Below are positions 3,136 to 8,878 of a DNA stretch of 34,454 bases, piece after piece. The translations under genes were made by a program, and so were the position numbers. Positions within the stretch are counted from its first letter, which is position 1. Each line of letters starts with the position of its first letter. The notes beneath the pieces are model-generated. The model had not been told where the DNA came from and searched no databases. It was given only the letters and a program-made list of their open reading frames with translations. This stretch comes from Acidobacteriota bacterium (lineage in GTDB: Bacteria > Acidobacteriota > Terriglobia > Acidiferrales > UBA7541): positions 1 to 34,454 of the forward strand of contig QHYE01000068.1 in the NCBI GenBank assembly GCA_003224055.1, in the 5' to 3' direction.

Positions 3136-3262
3136 CGGAACCTCCGAAATCGGTGTCTCCAAAAAGTGGGGGCAAAAACTACGTTTAGCCCCTTTTCCCG
3201 GCTTTCGCAAGCTTCACCATCGGATGGCGTGAGACTAGTCTCTGCGGCGGCCGTCTTATGAG

Positions 3263-3290
3263 GGTGAATGCATTCCGTATTGCGTTCACC
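3263..3290. repeat. 28-base imperfect dyad upstream of the DUF2911 gene
   Basis: GGTGAATGC and GCGTTCACC face each other across ten bases; eight of nine positions are complementary and the ninth would be a G-U pair in RNA. It sits about 50 bases upstream of the DUF2911 start in a 203-base divergent spacer. It could be a regulator-binding site or a leader hairpin. No trans-acting partner can be named from sequence. Confidence 0.4.
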
Positions 3291-3338
3291 GGGCAAATTA
3301 GGTTCAATGCTGGGGCACAGCTCAAGGGGGAAGAAGAA

Positions 3339-3881
3339 ATGAGAAAGCAATTCGCGGTTTTGGCGGTAGGTTGTCTGACACTGGGGTTCATGGCGGCGCT
3401 GGGATCCGCGCAGGCGGACAAAGCAGCGCGGCCGAGTCCGGCGGCGAAGGCGACGTGCACGCTTGCGGATGGCAAGACGATTACCGTGGATTACTCGAGT
3501 CCGCGGGCGAAGGGGCGGAAGATTTACGGTGGTTTGGTGCCGTACGGCGAGGTGTGGCGCACGGGGGCGAATGAAGCCACTACTTTCGTGACGACATCGG
3601 ACCTGATGGTGGGCGGTACGCACGTTCCCGCGGGGAGTTACACGATCTTCACGATCCCCAACAAGGACAAGTGGACGCTGGTTATCAGCAAGAAAACCGG
3701 TGAGTGGGGGACAAACTATCCCGGTCCTGAGAACGATTTGGCGCGCATCGAAATGAAGGCATCGGCCTTGCCCGCTGCGGCCGAGAATTTCACGATCGCG
3801 TTTGACAAGACATCCGGAGGATGCGCTCTTCGGATGGACTGGGAGTCCACTCGAGCTTCGGTGGAGATCGCAAAGATGTAA
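3339..3881 (+). CDS. DUF2911 family secreted protein
   Basis: A 180-residue exported protein of the DUF2911 family, whose biochemical role is unknown. Start at 3339 follows a GGGGGAAG ribosome site and gives a Sec signal peptide (MRKQFAVLAVGCLTLGFMAA, cleavage likely after AQA near residue 26). The mature part has the family's typical blocks: a Tyr-Ser-Ser-Pro-x-x-Lys-Gly-Arg segment, YGEVWRTGANEATTF, an AGSYTIFTIP strand and W-T-L-V-I-S-K followed by GEWGTNY. It stands alone, between divergent and convergent neighbours, and ends at a strong terminator, so it is probably monocistronic. Such proteins are frequent in Acidobacteriota and Bacteroidota. Confidence 0.88.
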   Translation: MRKQFAVLAVGCLTLGFMAALGSAQADKAARPSPAAKATCTLADGKTITVDYSSPRAKGRKIYGGLVPYGEVWRTGANEATTFVTTSDLMVGGTHVPAGSYTIFTIPNKDKWTLVISKKTGEWGTNYPGPENDLARIEMKASALPAAAENFTIAFDKTSGGCALRMDWESTRASVEIAKM

Positions 3882-3911
3882 CCGCGAAACGATTCAAGCG
3901 AACTGCAGAAG

Positions 3912-3943
3912 AGAGCGCCGTTCGATAGAGCGGCGCTCTTTTT
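3912..3943 (+). terminator. Rho-independent terminator after the DUF2911 gene
   Basis: AGAGCGCCG pairs perfectly with CGGCGCTCT across a ten-base loop and runs into TTTTT, 30 bases after the stop at 3881. It points in the plus direction. On the other strand the U-rich tail is weak, so it probably ends the convergent transporter transcript poorly or not at all. Confidence 0.88.
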
Positions 3944-3975
3944 GCTTCAGGAACAAACAGCGGATTCCCGTTGTC

Positions 3976-4938
3976 TCAGGGGCTCTGTTTCAGAAGCGTG
4001 GTACCCCGATCCACCAGCATGACGGCTCCAATGACCAGGGCAGTGGAAAGGAGGACGTTGAGTGTGACCGCCTCGCCGGCGACGAGCCATCCGAGGAGGA
4101 CGGCAACGATCGGATTGACGTAGGTGTGGGTGGCGACAAGCGTGGGCGAGTAGTGTTCGAGGAGCCAGTTATAGGCGGTGAAGGCCACCACCGAGCCGAA
4201 AAAGATGAGGTAGCCAAGAGCCAGCCACGAACGAGTGGTGACAACGGCAAACGAGAAGCCGCGATACTCGCCGGCGATGGTGCCGGCCAGAAGCAATTGA
4301 AGAGAGCCGGCCAGCAGAGATAGCGTTGTGAGCAGGTGCGGATGGCCGGAGAGATGCGATTGCCGGGAATACACAATCCCCACGGACCAGGAAACCGCGC
4401 CAACAAGGATGGCGAGCGAGCCGAGGAATACACCGGGGCCCGCGATGAGAGCGCTTCTCCCCATGAGGAGGCCCACGCCTCCGAATCCCAGAACGAGGCC
4501 GGCCAGCAGCGTTGCATTGGAGCGCCAGCGCTTGGCAGCGATGGCAAAAAGCAAGAATACCCAGAGAGGCTCGCTGGCGATGAGGAGAGAGGCGAGGCCT
4601 GAAGGAACCTTCTGCTCCGCCCAGTGCAAGGAGCCGTGGCCACCGAGAAAGAAGAAAGCGCCGATGATGAAGCTGGCGCGGACTTGCGCCCAGGTGGGCC
4701 GCAGGCGCTTGGCAAGGCACCACGCCAGAAGAATCAGGCCGGCGATGAGGTGCCGGATTCCGGCGGTGTAGAGCGGGGGGATGGTCTCCACGGCGTAGCG
4801 GATGGCGAGATACGTGGAGCCCCAGATCAGGTAGATCGAGAGAAAGGAAAAGAGCACCATGGCGCGATTCAGGCGGGGGCGCGCCACGGCCGGGCTGGTT
4901 GCAAGTTCCGCTACGACGGTTGCTGATTTCGCAGACAT
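3976..4938 (-). CDS. EamA-family (drug/metabolite) inner-membrane exporter
   Basis: A 320-residue transporter of the drug/metabolite transporter superfamily, with two EamA repeats and about ten membrane helices. The first helix has FSFLSIYLIWGSTYLAIRYAV, in the family signature W-G-S-T-Y/F. The second repeat begins near GSLAILVGAVSWSVGIVYS. Family members export amino acids, metabolites or toxic compounds; the closest named relative by pattern is E. coli YedA, but the substrate cannot be read from sequence. Start at 4938 follows AAGGA. It diverges from a CGNR-type regulator with a 142-base shared spacer carrying GTAATG/CATTAC repeats, so control by that neighbour is likely. Confidence 0.9.
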   Translation of the reverse strand: MSAKSATVVAELATSPAVARPRLNRAMVLFSFLSIYLIWGSTYLAIRYAVETIPPLYTAGIRHLIAGLILLAWCLAKRLRPTWAQVRASFIIGAFFFLGGHGSLHWAEQKVPSGLASLLIASEPLWVFLLFAIAAKRWRSNATLLAGLVLGFGGVGLLMGRSALIAGPGVFLGSLAILVGAVSWSVGIVYSRQSHLSGHPHLLTTLSLLAGSLQLLLAGTIAGEYRGFSFAVVTTRSWLALGYLIFFGSVVAFTAYNWLLEHYSPTLVATHTYVNPIVAVLLGWLVAGEAVTLNVLLSTALVIGAVMLVDRGTTLLKQSP

Positions 4939-4991
4939 GGAGTCATCCTTGAACCGCAGCGCGAGTTATCCCAAGGGCCGGAACGATCCGG

Positions 4992-5020
4992 TTGTCGTAA
5001 TGGATTATCACTGCTATACT
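4992..5020 (+). promoter_or_regulatory. Predicted promoter of the CGNR regulator gene
   Basis: TTGTCG (4992-4997) and TATACT (5015-5020) match the -35 and -10 elements at 4 of 6 and 5 of 6 positions with an ideal 17-base spacer. On the opposite strand, GATAAT (complement of 5005-5010) could be the -10 of the divergent transporter, though its -35 is unclear. Confidence 0.6.
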
Positions 5021-5076
5021 CATTACCGGATTCTAGCTGATTTTCTGTATCGAGTCAACTTACTTTAACCCATTAC
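4997..5076. promoter_or_regulatory. Possible operator: three GTAATG/CATTAC half-sites in divergent spacer
   Basis: GTAATGG at 4997-5003, CATTAC at 5021-5026 and CCATTAC at 5070-5076. The first two form an inverted pair that brackets the predicted -10, and the third lies just before the regulator start. This is where an autoregulating repressor would bind. The assignment to the adjacent CGNR protein is inference. Confidence 0.45.
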
Positions 5077-5080
5077 AGCA

Positions 5081-5659
5081 ATGACACAACGCGACATTTT
5101 TCAGGCCAAAGGGTTCGGGAACGCGGCGCCCTGGATCGACCTGGCCAACAGCGAAGAATGGGATGGCTTCGGGAAACGCACGGAGCATCTTGCAAACCCC
5201 CAGTGGCTGACTGCGTTTCTTAAACATTGGAAGCTGCATCCCGCGCCGTCGAGCGCTGTTCCCCGCCGCGAATTGGCGGAATTGCGCAGCCTGCTCCGCC
5301 GAGTCGCCGAAAAACTGGCCGCCGGACGTTCGCCGGGTTCCGCAGAACTTTCAAAATTGAACCAAGCATTGAAAGTACCGGCTCGGCAGAAACTCGTCCA
5401 GAACCAAATTGGGTTCCGCACCGAACTCGTACCGGTGAAGAGCGATTGGAGCTGGGCGATCGCACGGATTGCCGCCTCGCTGGGAGAAATGCTGGCGAAG
5501 GGCGATTTGCAGCGCATCAAGATTTGCGCGAATTCGGACTGCCGATGGATTTTCCATGATCCCACGAAAGCGAGAATCAAGCGCTGGTGTAACGACCGCA
5601 CCTGTGGCAACCGCGCACGGGTTCGACGTGCGCGAGCGGCACGACGGCGAAACGCGTGA
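5081..5659 (+). CDS. CGNR zinc-finger transcriptional regulator (ABATE-like domain)
   Basis: A 192-residue protein with an N-terminal ABATE-like domain (WIDLANSEEW... early, LRRVAEKLAAGR mid-protein) and a C-terminal CGNR zinc finger. The finger has ICANSDCRWIFHDPTK (two Cys) followed by WCNDRTCGNRARVRRAR (two more Cys) and an Arg-rich tail suited to DNA binding. The family is predicted to act as stress- or ligand-responsive transcription factors. The divergent EamA exporter is a common partner for small one-component regulators, so it probably controls that transporter and itself. The start at 5081 gives a full-length product. Confidence 0.87.
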   Translation: MTQRDIFQAKGFGNAAPWIDLANSEEWDGFGKRTEHLANPQWLTAFLKHWKLHPAPSSAVPRRELAELRSLLRRVAEKLAAGRSPGSAELSKLNQALKVPARQKLVQNQIGFRTELVPVKSDWSWAIARIAASLGEMLAKGDLQRIKICANSDCRWIFHDPTKARIKRWCNDRTCGNRARVRRARAARRRNA

Positions 5660-5709: not shown

Positions 5710-6321
5710 TCAGGAATTCTTTGTGCGGACCAGCGATAAAAACTCGTCGCGGGTCTGTTTATTGTGGCGGAAACCGCCAAGCATGGCGCTGGTCACGGCC
5801 GAGCCGTGTTGCTTTTCAACGCCGCGCATCTGCATGCACAAGTGGCGCGCCTCGATGATGACGCCGACACCTTCGGGGCTGATTTTGTCTTGAATGGCCT
5901 CCGCGATCTGGCTGGTCATGCGCTCTTGAATCTGCAGGCGGCGGGCAAACATGTTCACCAGGCGGGCGATCTTGCTGAGCCCGAGCACACGCTTGTTCGG
6001 CAGGTAAGCGACATGGGCTTTGCCGAAGAACGGGAGCAGATGGTGTTCGCAGAGGCTGAAGAACTCGATATCTTTCACGATGACCATCTCGTCGTAGGCG
6101 ACGGTGAAGGTGGCGCCGTTGAGAAGGTGGTCAATGTTCTGATGATAGCCGCTGGTGAGAAATTTGAAGGCCTTTTCGAAGCGCTCCGGGGTCTTGCGCA
6201 GTCCCTCGCGATTCGGGTCTTCGCCAACCAGTTTGATGATTTCGCGCACGTGGCAGGCGATCCTCCGCGCGTCAAGCTCCTTGCTGTCATTGAGCAGGAT
6301 TTCTTCGGTGGGTTTGGTCAC
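5710..6321 (-). CDS. folE: GTP cyclohydrolase I
   Basis: Converts GTP to 7,8-dihydroneopterin triphosphate, the first step to folate, tetrahydrobiopterin-type pterins and deazapurines. From the GTG at 6321 the product has 203 residues. Zinc ligands are C91 and H94 in [11 protein letters not shown] and C162 in RHLCMQMRG, the pattern of the zinc-dependent type IA enzyme. [10 protein letters not shown] and the terminal TRDEFLSLV are also typical. I preferred GTG 6321 because it overlaps the upstream stop as GTGA and has AAGGGA in front. A frame to 6468 would add 49 low-complexity residues read from inside the upstream gene. Its operon partners are two PTPS-type genes, so the product is likely used for a reduced pterin. 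Confidence 0.95.
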
Positions 6322-6758
6322 GGCCGATTCCCTTCTGGATTGTCCCCTGCGTACTCGAAACTGTTCTTCCCGGTCTCTGCGACTCGAATGCGTTCGAGCC
6401 TGGCCTTGGGGAAAGATTTCAGGCGTCGAAAGATCTCGATACACACATTCTCGGTGGTAGGCACACAATCGCGAAACGCCGGGATATCTTCGTTGAGCGA
6501 CTTATGATCGAAGTCTTCGAGCACATGGTCCGTCACGAAGGCGTCAAGGTCCGCGAGATTCGCGATCATGCCCGTGGCTGGGTCCACGTCTCCTGACAGG
6601 CTGACCTCCAAGACATAATTGTGGCCGTGGCCGTAAGGATTGCTGCATTTCCCAAAGACGCGGTTATTCTCCTCTTTACTTAGATGCGCGGTATGCAGCC
6701 GATGTGATGCCGAAAAACGGTACCGGCGGCCGAGTTCGACCTTGAGCGCGCTGCTCAT
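6318..6758 (-). CDS. 6-pyruvoyl-tetrahydropterin synthase / QueD family protein, copy B
   Basis: A 146-residue T-fold enzyme, second of two tandem paralogues. Zinc ligands: H19 (FSASH), H44 and H46 (GHGHNY). Catalytic Cys is C38 in VFGKCSNP, with D84-H85 and the pterin-anchoring glutamate E128 also present, so it should be active. The Cys-to-HGH spacing (C, five residues, HGH) is that of the animal-type PTPS rather than the C-x3-HGH of E. coli QueD. The segment [11 protein letters not shown] followed by [10 protein letters not shown] closely resembles mammalian PTPS as I recall it. ATGA overlap with copy A and GTGA overlap with folE indicate translational coupling. Annotation pipelines often call this 6-carboxytetrahydropterin synthase. 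Confidence 0.87.
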
Positions 6759-7186
6759 AGCTTCCCTGCCGCAGCGGCACCGTTGCGATAACAATCGGCG
6801 AAAAGGTCCGGCGATTCGTAGAGGCGCACGTGGTGCAATCTGCCGCGCGTGATCTTGGGATCGAGGAGTCGCCAGAGCACCTGCGCGATGTTCTCGCAGG
6901 TTGGGATCTGGCCGGCGAGCTCAGGGACTTCGTAGTTCAAATGGCGGTGGTCCATGCGCTGCATCACTTCGCGCTCCAAAATCTCCTTTAATTCTTTCAG
7001 GTCGAGGACCATGCCTGTTACCGGGTCCGGCTCGCCAGCAACGGTTACCTCCAGCGTGTAGTTGTGGCCGTGGCCATGGGGATTGTTGCACTTCCCAAAG
7101 ACGCGGCGATTCTCCTCCGCCGAGAAATTCGGGTTGTGGTAGAGGTGCGAAGCGGAAAACTCGATTTTTCGTGTGATCAGAACCAT
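6755..7186 (-). CDS. 6-pyruvoyl-tetrahydropterin synthase / QueD family protein, copy A
   Basis: A 143-residue paralogue directly upstream of copy B. Zinc ligands H14, H39 and H41, catalytic C33 (VFGKCNNP), D79-H80 and E124 are all in place. The block CNNPHGHGHNY is nearly that of human PTPS, and C-x5-HGH spacing again argues for pyruvoyl-tetrahydropterin synthesis from dihydroneopterin triphosphate over queuosine. No queC, queE or queF lies nearby. Sequences of the two copies agree in the core but differ in helix surfaces and C-termini, so they may form a mixed hexamer or have split specificities. It lies 36 bases after the glycosyltransferase gene, likely the same transcript. Confidence 0.88.
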   Translation of the reverse strand: MVLITRKIEFSASHLYHNPNFSAEENRRVFGKCNNPHGHGHNYTLEVTVAGEPDPVTGMVLDLKELKEILEREVMQRMDHRHLNYEVPELAGQIPTCENIAQVLWRLLDPKITRGRLHHVRLYESPDLFADCYRNGAAAAGKL

Positions 7187-7222
7187 TGCGCCTTAGCCGC
7201 TGTGGAGTAGCCAGAACTCCAT

Positions 7223-8275
7223 CTATTTTAACCTACCCCCGGCTTGCACGGGGTATTCGCGGCCTTTCCATTCGACCGTACCTCGGGCGTGACGCCGGTA
7301 GGAGGCCCAGAGCACGCCTGCGTACAACCCAACTGCGGGTACGTAATAGAGGATGAGCGAAAAGGGGAATTGGTTACGGGTCAACTCGGATCCATAGTTG
7401 ATCTGGCGGAAAATGAGGAGCCATGCGCCGGCAAACAGGGCGAAGGGAAACTTGATCCCCAGCAGCAGAACTAGAACCACAATCCATGGGAACGTGGAGT
7501 CCATTTCGCGGAGAACAGCTTTGGGCGTCCCACCTATCAGCTTGTAGAGATTTTTCGTCCAGCCTTCCCACATCGAAGCGAAAGAGCGGTACATCCGGAC
7601 GCGGACGATTCCCTTGCCGGAATGAAACACGAGGCGGTAGCCCGCTGATTTGACGCGCTGCGCGAGGGCTACGTCTTCCAGGACTTCTGCGGTAACGCTG
7701 GCGTGGCCGCCGACGGCATCGTAGGCGTCGCGCCGAATCATAAGAAATTGGCCGTTGGCCGCGGCGTCTGGAGAAGCAGGATCATTCACCGCGTCGTAGC
7801 TGAATTTTCTGGCCAGCCGGCAATAAATGAAGGGAATCAAGGCTTTCTCGTACCACTTTTCCATGACTTGCTCCGGCGAGAAAGAAACGAGGGCGGCATT
7901 TGATTCTTGAGCAGCCTGCAAGGCTCTCGCGGCGGCTCCGGGTTCGTGCTCGGCGTCGGCATCGGTGAACAGCAACCACGGATTTGTCGCTTCTCTAGCA
8001 CCGAGAGCAACCGCATGGTTTTTGCCGACCCAGCCTTCAGGAACGCCTTGCGTTTCCAGAAGGCGAAGGTTCGGGACAGTGGCCATGAGCCCGCGAACAA
8101 TTTCTGCAGTTTTGTCGGTCGATTGGTCATTCACGACGAGAATCTGGCTGATCTCGGGCTGGCAAGCCAGCGAATCGATGCACGCAGCGATGGATGCCTC
8201 TTCATTACGCGCGGGAACGATGGCGCTGATGAGGGCAGAACGGCTGGTGGCGGCAGTGGCCGGTGCGTTAGGCAT
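7223..8275 (-). CDS. Membrane-associated family 2 glycosyltransferase (CrtQ-like)
   Basis: A 350-residue GT2 enzyme transferring a sugar from an activated donor to a probably lipid acceptor. Visible motifs are SAIVPARNEEASI near residue 16, VVNDQSTDKT, the donor/metal-binding LFTDADAEHE (DxD-type), ANGQFLMIRRDAY, and the EDVALAQRVKSAGY block. Then come RVRMYRSFASMWEGWTKNLY, two or three C-terminal membrane helices, and a VEWKGREY tail. The EGWTK and VEWKGR(E/Q)Y features match, from memory, the staphyloxanthin glycosyltransferase CrtQ, and HpnB-type enzymes are also related. The acceptor is unknown. No clear ribosome site precedes the ATG at 8275. It is the first gene of an apparent operon with the two PTPS genes and folE. 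Confidence 0.87.
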   Translation of the reverse strand: MPNAPATAATSRSALISAIVPARNEEASIAACIDSLACQPEISQILVVNDQSTDKTAEIVRGLMATVPNLRLLETQGVPEGWVGKNHAVALGAREATNPWLLFTDADAEHEPGAAARALQAAQESNAALVSFSPEQVMEKWYEKALIPFIYCRLARKFSYDAVNDPASPDAAANGQFLMIRRDAYDAVGGHASVTAEVLEDVALAQRVKSAGYRLVFHSGKGIVRVRMYRSFASMWEGWTKNLYKLIGGTPKAVLREMDSTFPWIVVLVLLLGIKFPFALFAGAWLLIFRQINYGSELTRNQFPFSLILYYVPAVGLYAGVLWASYRRHARGTVEWKGREYPVQAGGRLK

Positions 8276-8327: not shown

Positions 8328-8335
8328 AGCATTTG

Positions 8336-8878
8336 ATGGAAATCGGTCGAAAAATCGTGACATGGGGCGCAGTTCTGGCCGCGCTGGGAGTTTTGGTGCT
8401 TTTTGCCATGCCGAGCTACCGGCAGGGCGAAGACTCGATTGCCGGTAAACCCGCGAAGGAGTTCTCGTTGGAGATTTCCGGGAAGCCGGGGCGCCTCTCG
8501 GACTACAAGGGCAAGATTGTCGTGCTGAATTTTTGGGCGACCTGGTGCCCGCCCTGCGTGGAAGAGACCCCCGGTCTGAATCGGCTGCAGAAACACATCG
8601 CCCCACGCAACGGCGTGATCCTAGGCGTCGCTGCCGACGAGGACGCCGCTGCTTATGAGAGATTTCTGCGCGACCAGGGCGTGACCTTTCCCACCTACCG
8701 CGACCCGGCTACCAAGGATAATCACTCGCCGATCGCTCAAACCTACGGCACCTCGATGTATCCCGAAACGTACGTCATCGATCGCAACGGCAAGATAGCG
8801 CGCAAATTTATCGGCTTTCAGCAGTGGGATTCGCCGGAAATGCTCGCGTACTTCGACGCAATTCTCGGGCAGACCTAG
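8336..8878 (+). CDS. Membrane-anchored TlpA/ResA-like thiol-disulfide protein
   Basis: A 180-residue thioredoxin-fold protein facing the periplasm. Residues 7-25 form an uncleaved or lipid-free N-terminal membrane helix. The active site is WCPPC with C71 and C74 after VVLNFWAT, and the cis-proline region is MYPETYVID. The segment DEDAAAYERFLRDQGVTFP is the usual AhpC/TSA-TlpA insertion. Such proteins reduce disulfides for cytochrome c maturation or copper-site assembly. The ATG at 8336 was preferred over the adjacent TTG at 8333. It diverges from the glycosyltransferase and converges on the copper ATPase with only 38 bases between stops. Confidence 0.9.
   Translation: MEIGRKIVTWGAVLAALGVLVLFAMPSYRQGEDSIAGKPAKEFSLEISGKPGRLSDYKGKIVVLNFWATWCPPCVEETPGLNRLQKHIAPRNGVILGVAADEDAAAYERFLRDQGVTFPTYRDPATKDNHSPIAQTYGTSMYPETYVIDRNGKIARKFIGFQQWDSPEMLAYFDAILGQT

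Follow-up and report, generated by a model that had tools for sequence, protein, structure and literature searches.

In 6-pyruvoyl-tetrahydropterin synthase (PTPS), Cys42 and Asp88-His89 of one active site belong to different subunits. The phrase "intersubunit catalytic triad motif" reportedly occurs in the title of a 1995 paper on PTPS by Burgisser et al. Trypanosome deoxyhypusine synthase is a heteromer of paralogs with unequal catalytic residues. Plant PDX1.2 has been described, in the part of its source at hand, as forming another such heteromer. For PTPS itself, the accessible text of PMC7546909 describes six identical monomers with six sites, each between three adjacent monomers. Can the two halves of such a site be divided between two genes? 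Here, we analyzed a 34,454-nucleotide stretch of DNA (the window; contig QHYE01000068.1 of assembly GCA_003224055.1, labeled C53 in our analysis) from an Acidobacteriota soil bacterium whose genome is 4.53 Mb long and 95.6% complete. The window holds a tandem of two PTPS paralogs, PTPSa and PTPSb, between genes for a glycosyltransferase (GT2) and GTP cyclohydrolase I (FolE). In relatives, the two copies decay in complementary fashion. This is our new main result, and it goes beyond the original prediction made from the sequence of this locus. Unlike the animal enzyme, a homohexamer (PMC7546909, in the part available), the Acidobacteriota pair appears to share the catalytic residues between two paralogs. 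The operon consists of the following features:

7223-8275, minus strand: GT2, membrane glycosyltransferase of 350 amino acids, the operon's first gene (Pfam Glycos_transf_2, 1.2e-23)
6755-7186, minus strand: PTPSa, PTPS-II paralog of 143 amino acids, proposed Asp-His subunit (Pfam PTPS, 2.7e-36)
6755-6758, minus strand: ATGA overlap of the PTPSa stop and the PTPSb start (sequence reading)
6318-6758, minus strand: PTPSb, PTPS-II paralog of 146 amino acids, proposed zinc/Cys42 subunit (Pfam PTPS, 6.5e-31)
6318-6321, minus strand: GTGA overlap of the PTPSb stop and the FolE start (sequence reading)
5710-6321, minus strand: FolE, GTP cyclohydrolase I of 203 amino acids from the GTG at 6321 (Pfam GTP_cyclohydroI, 3.1e-76)

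Between the end of GT2 at 7223 and the start of PTPSa at 7186 lies a gap of 36 bases. The gene order, this gap and both overlaps had been part of the original prediction, and all coordinates, the strand and the junctions were as it gave them. FolE scored 258 bits against TIGR00063 (cut-off, 181.6) and was the single match in the genome; no second GTP cyclohydrolase I was found there.

The prediction that both copies are animal-type PTPS and not QueD was borne out. The nearest solved structures are rat PTPS for PTPSa (1b66; E 1.4e-39) and human PTPS for PTPSb (3i2b; E 9.4e-39), and PDB entries named 6-carboxytetrahydropterin synthase matched the two copies at E 9e-10 or weaker. Against the QueD model TIGR03367 (cut-off, 89.25), PTPSa reached 70 bits and PTPSb 66.2 bits, both below the cut-off; the broad family model TIGR00039 (cut-off, 125.5) left both copies, as well as the separate QueD of this genome (contig C59), below its threshold. 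The motif C-x5-HGH, given for PTPS-II in the available portion of PMC5041015, is present in PTPSa (CNNPHGHGH) and in PTPSb (CSNPYGHGH), although the former can also be read as C-x3-HGH and the latter cannot. The tandem shares its protein family with QueD (PTPS-I) and with the dual PTPS-I/III enzymes that COG0720 includes, as described in the same partial source (PMC5041015), but QueD differs in motif spacing and its gene lies apart from the tandem, beside queE and queC. On an alignment to rat PTPS, each window chain by itself carries the zinc ligands His23, His48 and His50 together with Cys42, Asp88-His89 and Glu133, as had been predicted and as in the animal enzymes; among the active-site positions tabulated, R24L and T106C set PTPSa apart from the rat enzyme. 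Both copies are PTPS-II by sequence, and 6-pyruvoyl-tetrahydropterin would be their most likely product.

In many relatives, one chain of the pair, or both, lacks part of this residue set. We numbered and aligned residues by rat PTPS and reduced 158 pairs of copies to 150 distinct ones by dropping those with identical core columns; labels a and b were assigned by gene order or best match in 145 of them. PTPSa kept Asp88-His89 in 150/150 pairs and had lost Cys42 in 33. PTPSb showed the reverse, with Cys42 kept in 149/150 pairs and Asp88 and/or His89 lost in 54 (two PTPSb sequences were unreadable at these two positions). In 24 pairs (12 inside and 12 outside the class, by which we mean the window's own class of Acidobacteriota), no chain had a whole triad, yet the pair together was complete. 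No pair of the 150 misses either half of the triad, and every PTPSa that lacks Cys42 has a Cys-bearing partner (33/33).

The same pattern was evident within the class. There, PTPSa kept Asp88-His89 in 133/133 pairs and had lost Cys42 in 21, namely, in all 20 genomes read from family f6 and in one from family f3 (the prefixes f, g, G and L denote our labels for families, genera, genomes and loci). PTPSb of the class kept Cys42 in 133/133 pairs, and its Asp88 and/or His89 was replaced in 41. Where just one copy of a class pair was incomplete, the intact one was PTPSa in 29 pairs and PTPSb in 8. The substitutes were diverse: E, A, N, D, G or S at position 42 in f6 and f3; A, E, N, R, D, G, H, S, K, L or a gap at this position over all pairs; and R, Q, L, E, Y, C, T, W or G in place of His89. 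Since the replacements vary, no single new residue took over at the lost positions. Six PTPSa sequences carry Glu for Cys42 and in this respect resemble Plasmodium PTPS, a Cys-to-Glu variant according to the available text of PMC2229834; unlike in Plasmodium, the substitute in PTPSa is not conserved, and the Cys-bearing partner is always there.

How often did these losses occur? We built a tree of 193 rows from which the catalytic columns had been removed and in which the named loci, our term for the nearest relatives in the PTPSa scan, are represented by 9 rows, one of them the window. On this trait-free tree, class PTPSa (71 rows) changed twice at Cys42 and never at Asp88/His89, and class PTPSb (70 rows) changed 17 times at Asp88/His89 and never at Cys42.

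Complementary losses were also found outside the class. Strong matches were present in 70 genomes of the phylum, and all 34 of these that lie outside the class were read. Six of them, five from f22 and one from f16, contain one open frame with both PTPS domains; domain 1 of these fused proteins lacks Cys42 and domain 2 lacks His89 (and, in f22, also Asp88). The presence of both domains in one frame gives indirect support to the predicted PTPSa:PTPSb complex. Unlinked copies in five genomes (f42, f74 and f87) show the same split, their Asp-His copy also being without His48 and Glu133, and the one f61 genome has a split tandem. In the 17 genomes outside the class for which a single PTPS-II copy was detected, this copy was complete in every case, which also favors a shared site. 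On the trait-free tree, class PTPSa grouped with domain 1 of f22, copy 1 of f25 and the Asp-His copies of f61, f42, f74 and f87, the last three families contributing all five unlinked copies. This clade had a support of 92 in the Shimodaira-Hasegawa-like approximate likelihood ratio test, and the inner node joining the outside copies had 43. The Asp-His subunit lineage therefore looks old, and its Cys partners look to come from more than one lineage.

Because the PTPS triad has been called intersubunit and the losses are complementary, a hetero-oligomer is the simplest reading. We consider it probable that PTPSa and PTPSb form a hetero-oligomer with composite active sites and that the operon makes 6-pyruvoyl-tetrahydropterin. 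FolE would supply 7,8-dihydroneopterin triphosphate, and PTPSa and PTPSb would assemble into one mixed PTPS with working sites at the PTPSa:PTPSb contacts. Each such site would combine Asp88-His89 of PTPSa with the zinc ligands, Cys42 and Glu133 of PTPSb. A mixed particle would then have one class of sites with everything and another class free to decay, which, given the division of residues between subunits of the known enzyme, would account for the decay pattern seen in the sequences. By analogy, we infer that the window pair may work likewise, with both triads intact there. The most likely product, 6-pyruvoyl-tetrahydropterin, would be reduced further by a short-chain dehydrogenase/reductase (SDR).

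An SDR gene is the next one after FolE at 16 of the 61 class loci, which we chose from 101 genomes (11/15 in f5, 4/16 in f10 and 1/1 in f11), and in 6/67 named loci; the counts for named loci come from the best 80 of the 471 loci confirmed in a scan with PTPSa, with those loci as denominators that have enough flanking sequence. Chlorobium sepiapterin reductase (2bd0) was third among the PDB matches of the neighbor SDR (E 5.9e-35), but 44 other SDR sequences also matched at 1e-25 or better and its NCBIfam matches were generic only. The SDR of these relatives may be a sepiapterin reductase. No SDR adjoins the operon in the window, and the best of 28 SDR matches in the source genome is 38% identical to the relatives' neighbor SDR.

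Several observations weigh against a composite-site enzyme. Both triads are complete in the window and in 82 of the 133 class pairs, and homomers are possible there; the same holds for the tandems of f25 (four genomes), in which both copies are complete. G154 (f46) breaks the pattern, with one complete copy and one without Cys42 and Asp88-His89. Seven of the 54 PTPSb losses, three of them among the 24 pairs without a whole triad in either chain, affect Asp88 only (replaced by E, G or Q) and leave His89 in place, and PTPSa of f6 still keeps the zinc ligands and Glu133, which the composite-site model does not require. In the five pairs of unlinked copies, the labels a and b were set by the residues themselves. 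The comparison with the 17 single-copy genomes is weakened by its definition of one copy, a lone match at E 1e-20 or better, so that a diverged second copy could escape; G154 and G229 were first listed with one copy and then found with a second. On the tree, domain 1 of f16 falls elsewhere on a long branch, and a sign test on independent pairs from the tree gave no information either way. Finally, the model for aromatic amino acid hydroxylases (PF00351) gave 0 matches in the 95.6% complete genome (other users of tetrahydrobiopterin were not searched for), which speaks against aromatic amino acid hydroxylation as the use of the pterin and leaves it without a known user.

A further question is whether the reduced pterin of this operon is glycosylated and whether GT2 attaches the sugar. 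This had been suggested in the original prediction, is compatible with a heteromeric PTPS, and strikes us as doubtful. The operon is widely conserved in the class, and its gene order is far beyond chance. PTPSb lies downstream of PTPSa in 76/76 named loci and FolE lies downstream in 72/72; in the class, FolE follows the tandem in 61/61 loci. GT2 is upstream in 73/75 named loci by our filter, and the other two (L039 and L075) have matches abutting PTPSa. In six class families other than f6 and f3, GT2 is linked to PTPSa in 38/40 loci, with both misses at contig ends, but it is not at the locus in 20/20 f6 genomes and the 1/1 f3 genome read. On conservation of the glycosyltransferase beside the PTPS genes, where its absence had been named as telling against the idea, the answer is therefore divided: it is kept in six families and missing in two.

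In genus g6, the tandem is missing from both genomes, each of which has a single PTPS-family match, and neither contains a close GT2, the best match having 28% identity. Linkage at the locus and this joint absence point to the pterin as the GT2 acceptor, and the short 36-base spacing fits with it. Outside the class, a GT2-like gene is found between the complete and the dead PTPS of G154 (L219, about 3258-5205). Other features of GT2 argue for a lipid acceptor: by simple hydropathy, two stretches of the protein are hydrophobic, around residues 265-283 and 305-323, and it weakly resembles models of lipid and carotenoid glycosyltransferases (155.6 of 379.25 bits for HpnB and 154.1 of 600 for CruG, both well below cut-off). 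The pteridine glycosyltransferase of Chlorobium tepidum is GT1/GT4-like in the accessible part of PMC5683033. The window gene, with its hydrophobic C-terminal segments, is GT2 by Pfam and so belongs to another glycosyltransferase family, as set apart by description; the Chlorobium enzyme would be a functional analogue only if GT2 acts on a pterin. These features count against pterin glycosylation, as does the absence of GT2 from the locus in f6 and f3.

Two more genes flank the operon. A divergent AhpC/TSA (TlpA-like) thioredoxin gene lies upstream at 8333-8878 of the window; a divergent thioredoxin-like gene is upstream in 70/70 named loci and occurs in nearly all loci read, also in those without GT2. 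An ABATE/CGNR zinc-finger regulator gene at 5081-5659, convergent with FolE, is retained in part of the near relatives.

One potential alternative to a mixed enzyme is that the two copies are separate homomeric enzymes with different reactions, PTPSa freed of the need for Cys42 and PTPSb of the need for Asp88-His89, each having adapted to a substrate or product of its own. The two paralogs separated long ago and are distinct (42.7% identity between the window copies), each has conserved positions of its own (for example, R24 in PTPSb and Y25 in PTPSa), both are complete in most class pairs, and Cys-to-Glu in Plasmodium PTPS alters the product, as described in the available part of PMC2229834. 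We nevertheless regard this alternative as unlikely: the substitutes vary without forming a new conserved set, the split recurs in fused and unlinked pairs, and none of the 150 pairs misses either half of the triad. Still less likely, in our estimate, is catalysis by a single copy, with its partner serving as a pseudoenzyme in a regulatory or structural role. That explanation suffices for the 29 class pairs in which only PTPSa is intact, for the 8 in which only PTPSb is, and for G154 with its one complete and one dead copy. It does not suffice for the 24 pairs in which neither chain is complete, and the incomplete copy differs between lineages.

Could the tandem instead replace FolB in folate synthesis, in the manner of a PTPS-III? 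FolB was not found in the source genome (95.6% complete), in which FolK is present, and tandem-bearing genomes are mostly without FolB; moreover, 15 of 20 genomes with FolB above cut-off have at most two PTPS-family matches. In four genomes (G006, G022, G054 and G085), the tandem is present with neither FolB nor a further PTPS-family match, possibly through assembly gaps (G088, also with two PTPS-family matches, was left out of the reading). A third PTPS-family gene of the source genome, on contig C59 (L004:2334-2741), offers another answer. It adjoins queE and queC and scores 106.3 bits against the TIGR03367 cut-off of 89.25; the QueC neighbor is above the NCBIfam QueC cut-off, and the QueE neighbor matches QueE models below their cut-offs. 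This QueD reads CENVHGH and so carries CExxHGH, given in the available text of PMC5041015 as the signature of dual PTPS-I/III enzymes (COG0720) serving both pathways. CExxHGH was present in 11/11 proteins read from FolB-less genomes versus 0/9 from FolB-bearing ones, the nine being five QueD of f6 (C[SA]RLHGH) and four f8 proteins of uncertain orthology, perhaps not QueD. The CExxHGH QueD is likely the answer to the missing FolB, and the folate bypass is most simply its task. Because this signature tracks FolB absence, we rank replacement of FolB by the tandem low, as improbable, the four genomes G006, G022, G054 and G085 aside; in addition, neither window copy has ExxHGH (no Glu three before HGH), five f6 genomes hold both FolB and the tandem, and g6 has neither. 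The four f8 proteins, from FolB-bearing genomes (L098, L099, L100 and L101), read CR[HYF]LHGH, and their Asp-His motif is followed by a long insert. The original prediction had also set the tandem apart from queuosine synthesis, and we reject a queuosine role, as the separate queD-queE-queC cluster on another contig leaves the tandem not needed for it.

Literature searches, in which subscription papers were poorly covered, found no heteromeric PTPS and no PTPS in Acidobacteria, nor did they find any pterin enzyme built as a heteromer of catalytically unequal paralogs. The nearest parallels, deoxyhypusine synthase and PDX1.2, are like PTPSa and PTPSb in having paralogous subunits that differ in catalytic residues, and they have other folds. 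We propose that the two-gene, composite-site PTPS is a new variant of a known enzyme. With some caution, we favor a broader reading of the sequence data, in which Acidobacteriota use an obligate two-gene PTPS: an ancient Asp-His subunit lineage would serve zinc-Cys partners, with complementary decay many times over (17 Asp88/His89 changes in class PTPSb alone), also where the genes are unlinked, and with the chains joined in some families; in the window's group, the enzyme would feed a reduced pterin that GT2 possibly modifies. Our data indicate a reduced-pterin pathway, as yet unstudied, in one of the major phyla of soil, and the source genome has no recognized user of the pterin. If the two-gene PTPS is real, the two halves of its intersubunit site lie on two genes and have been lost repeatedly, and sequence alone would reveal which residues must come from which subunit. 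Annotation of these genomes would then need a warning that neither gene by itself predicts PTPS activity, and the pair would be a clean case of mutual dependence evolved after gene duplication.

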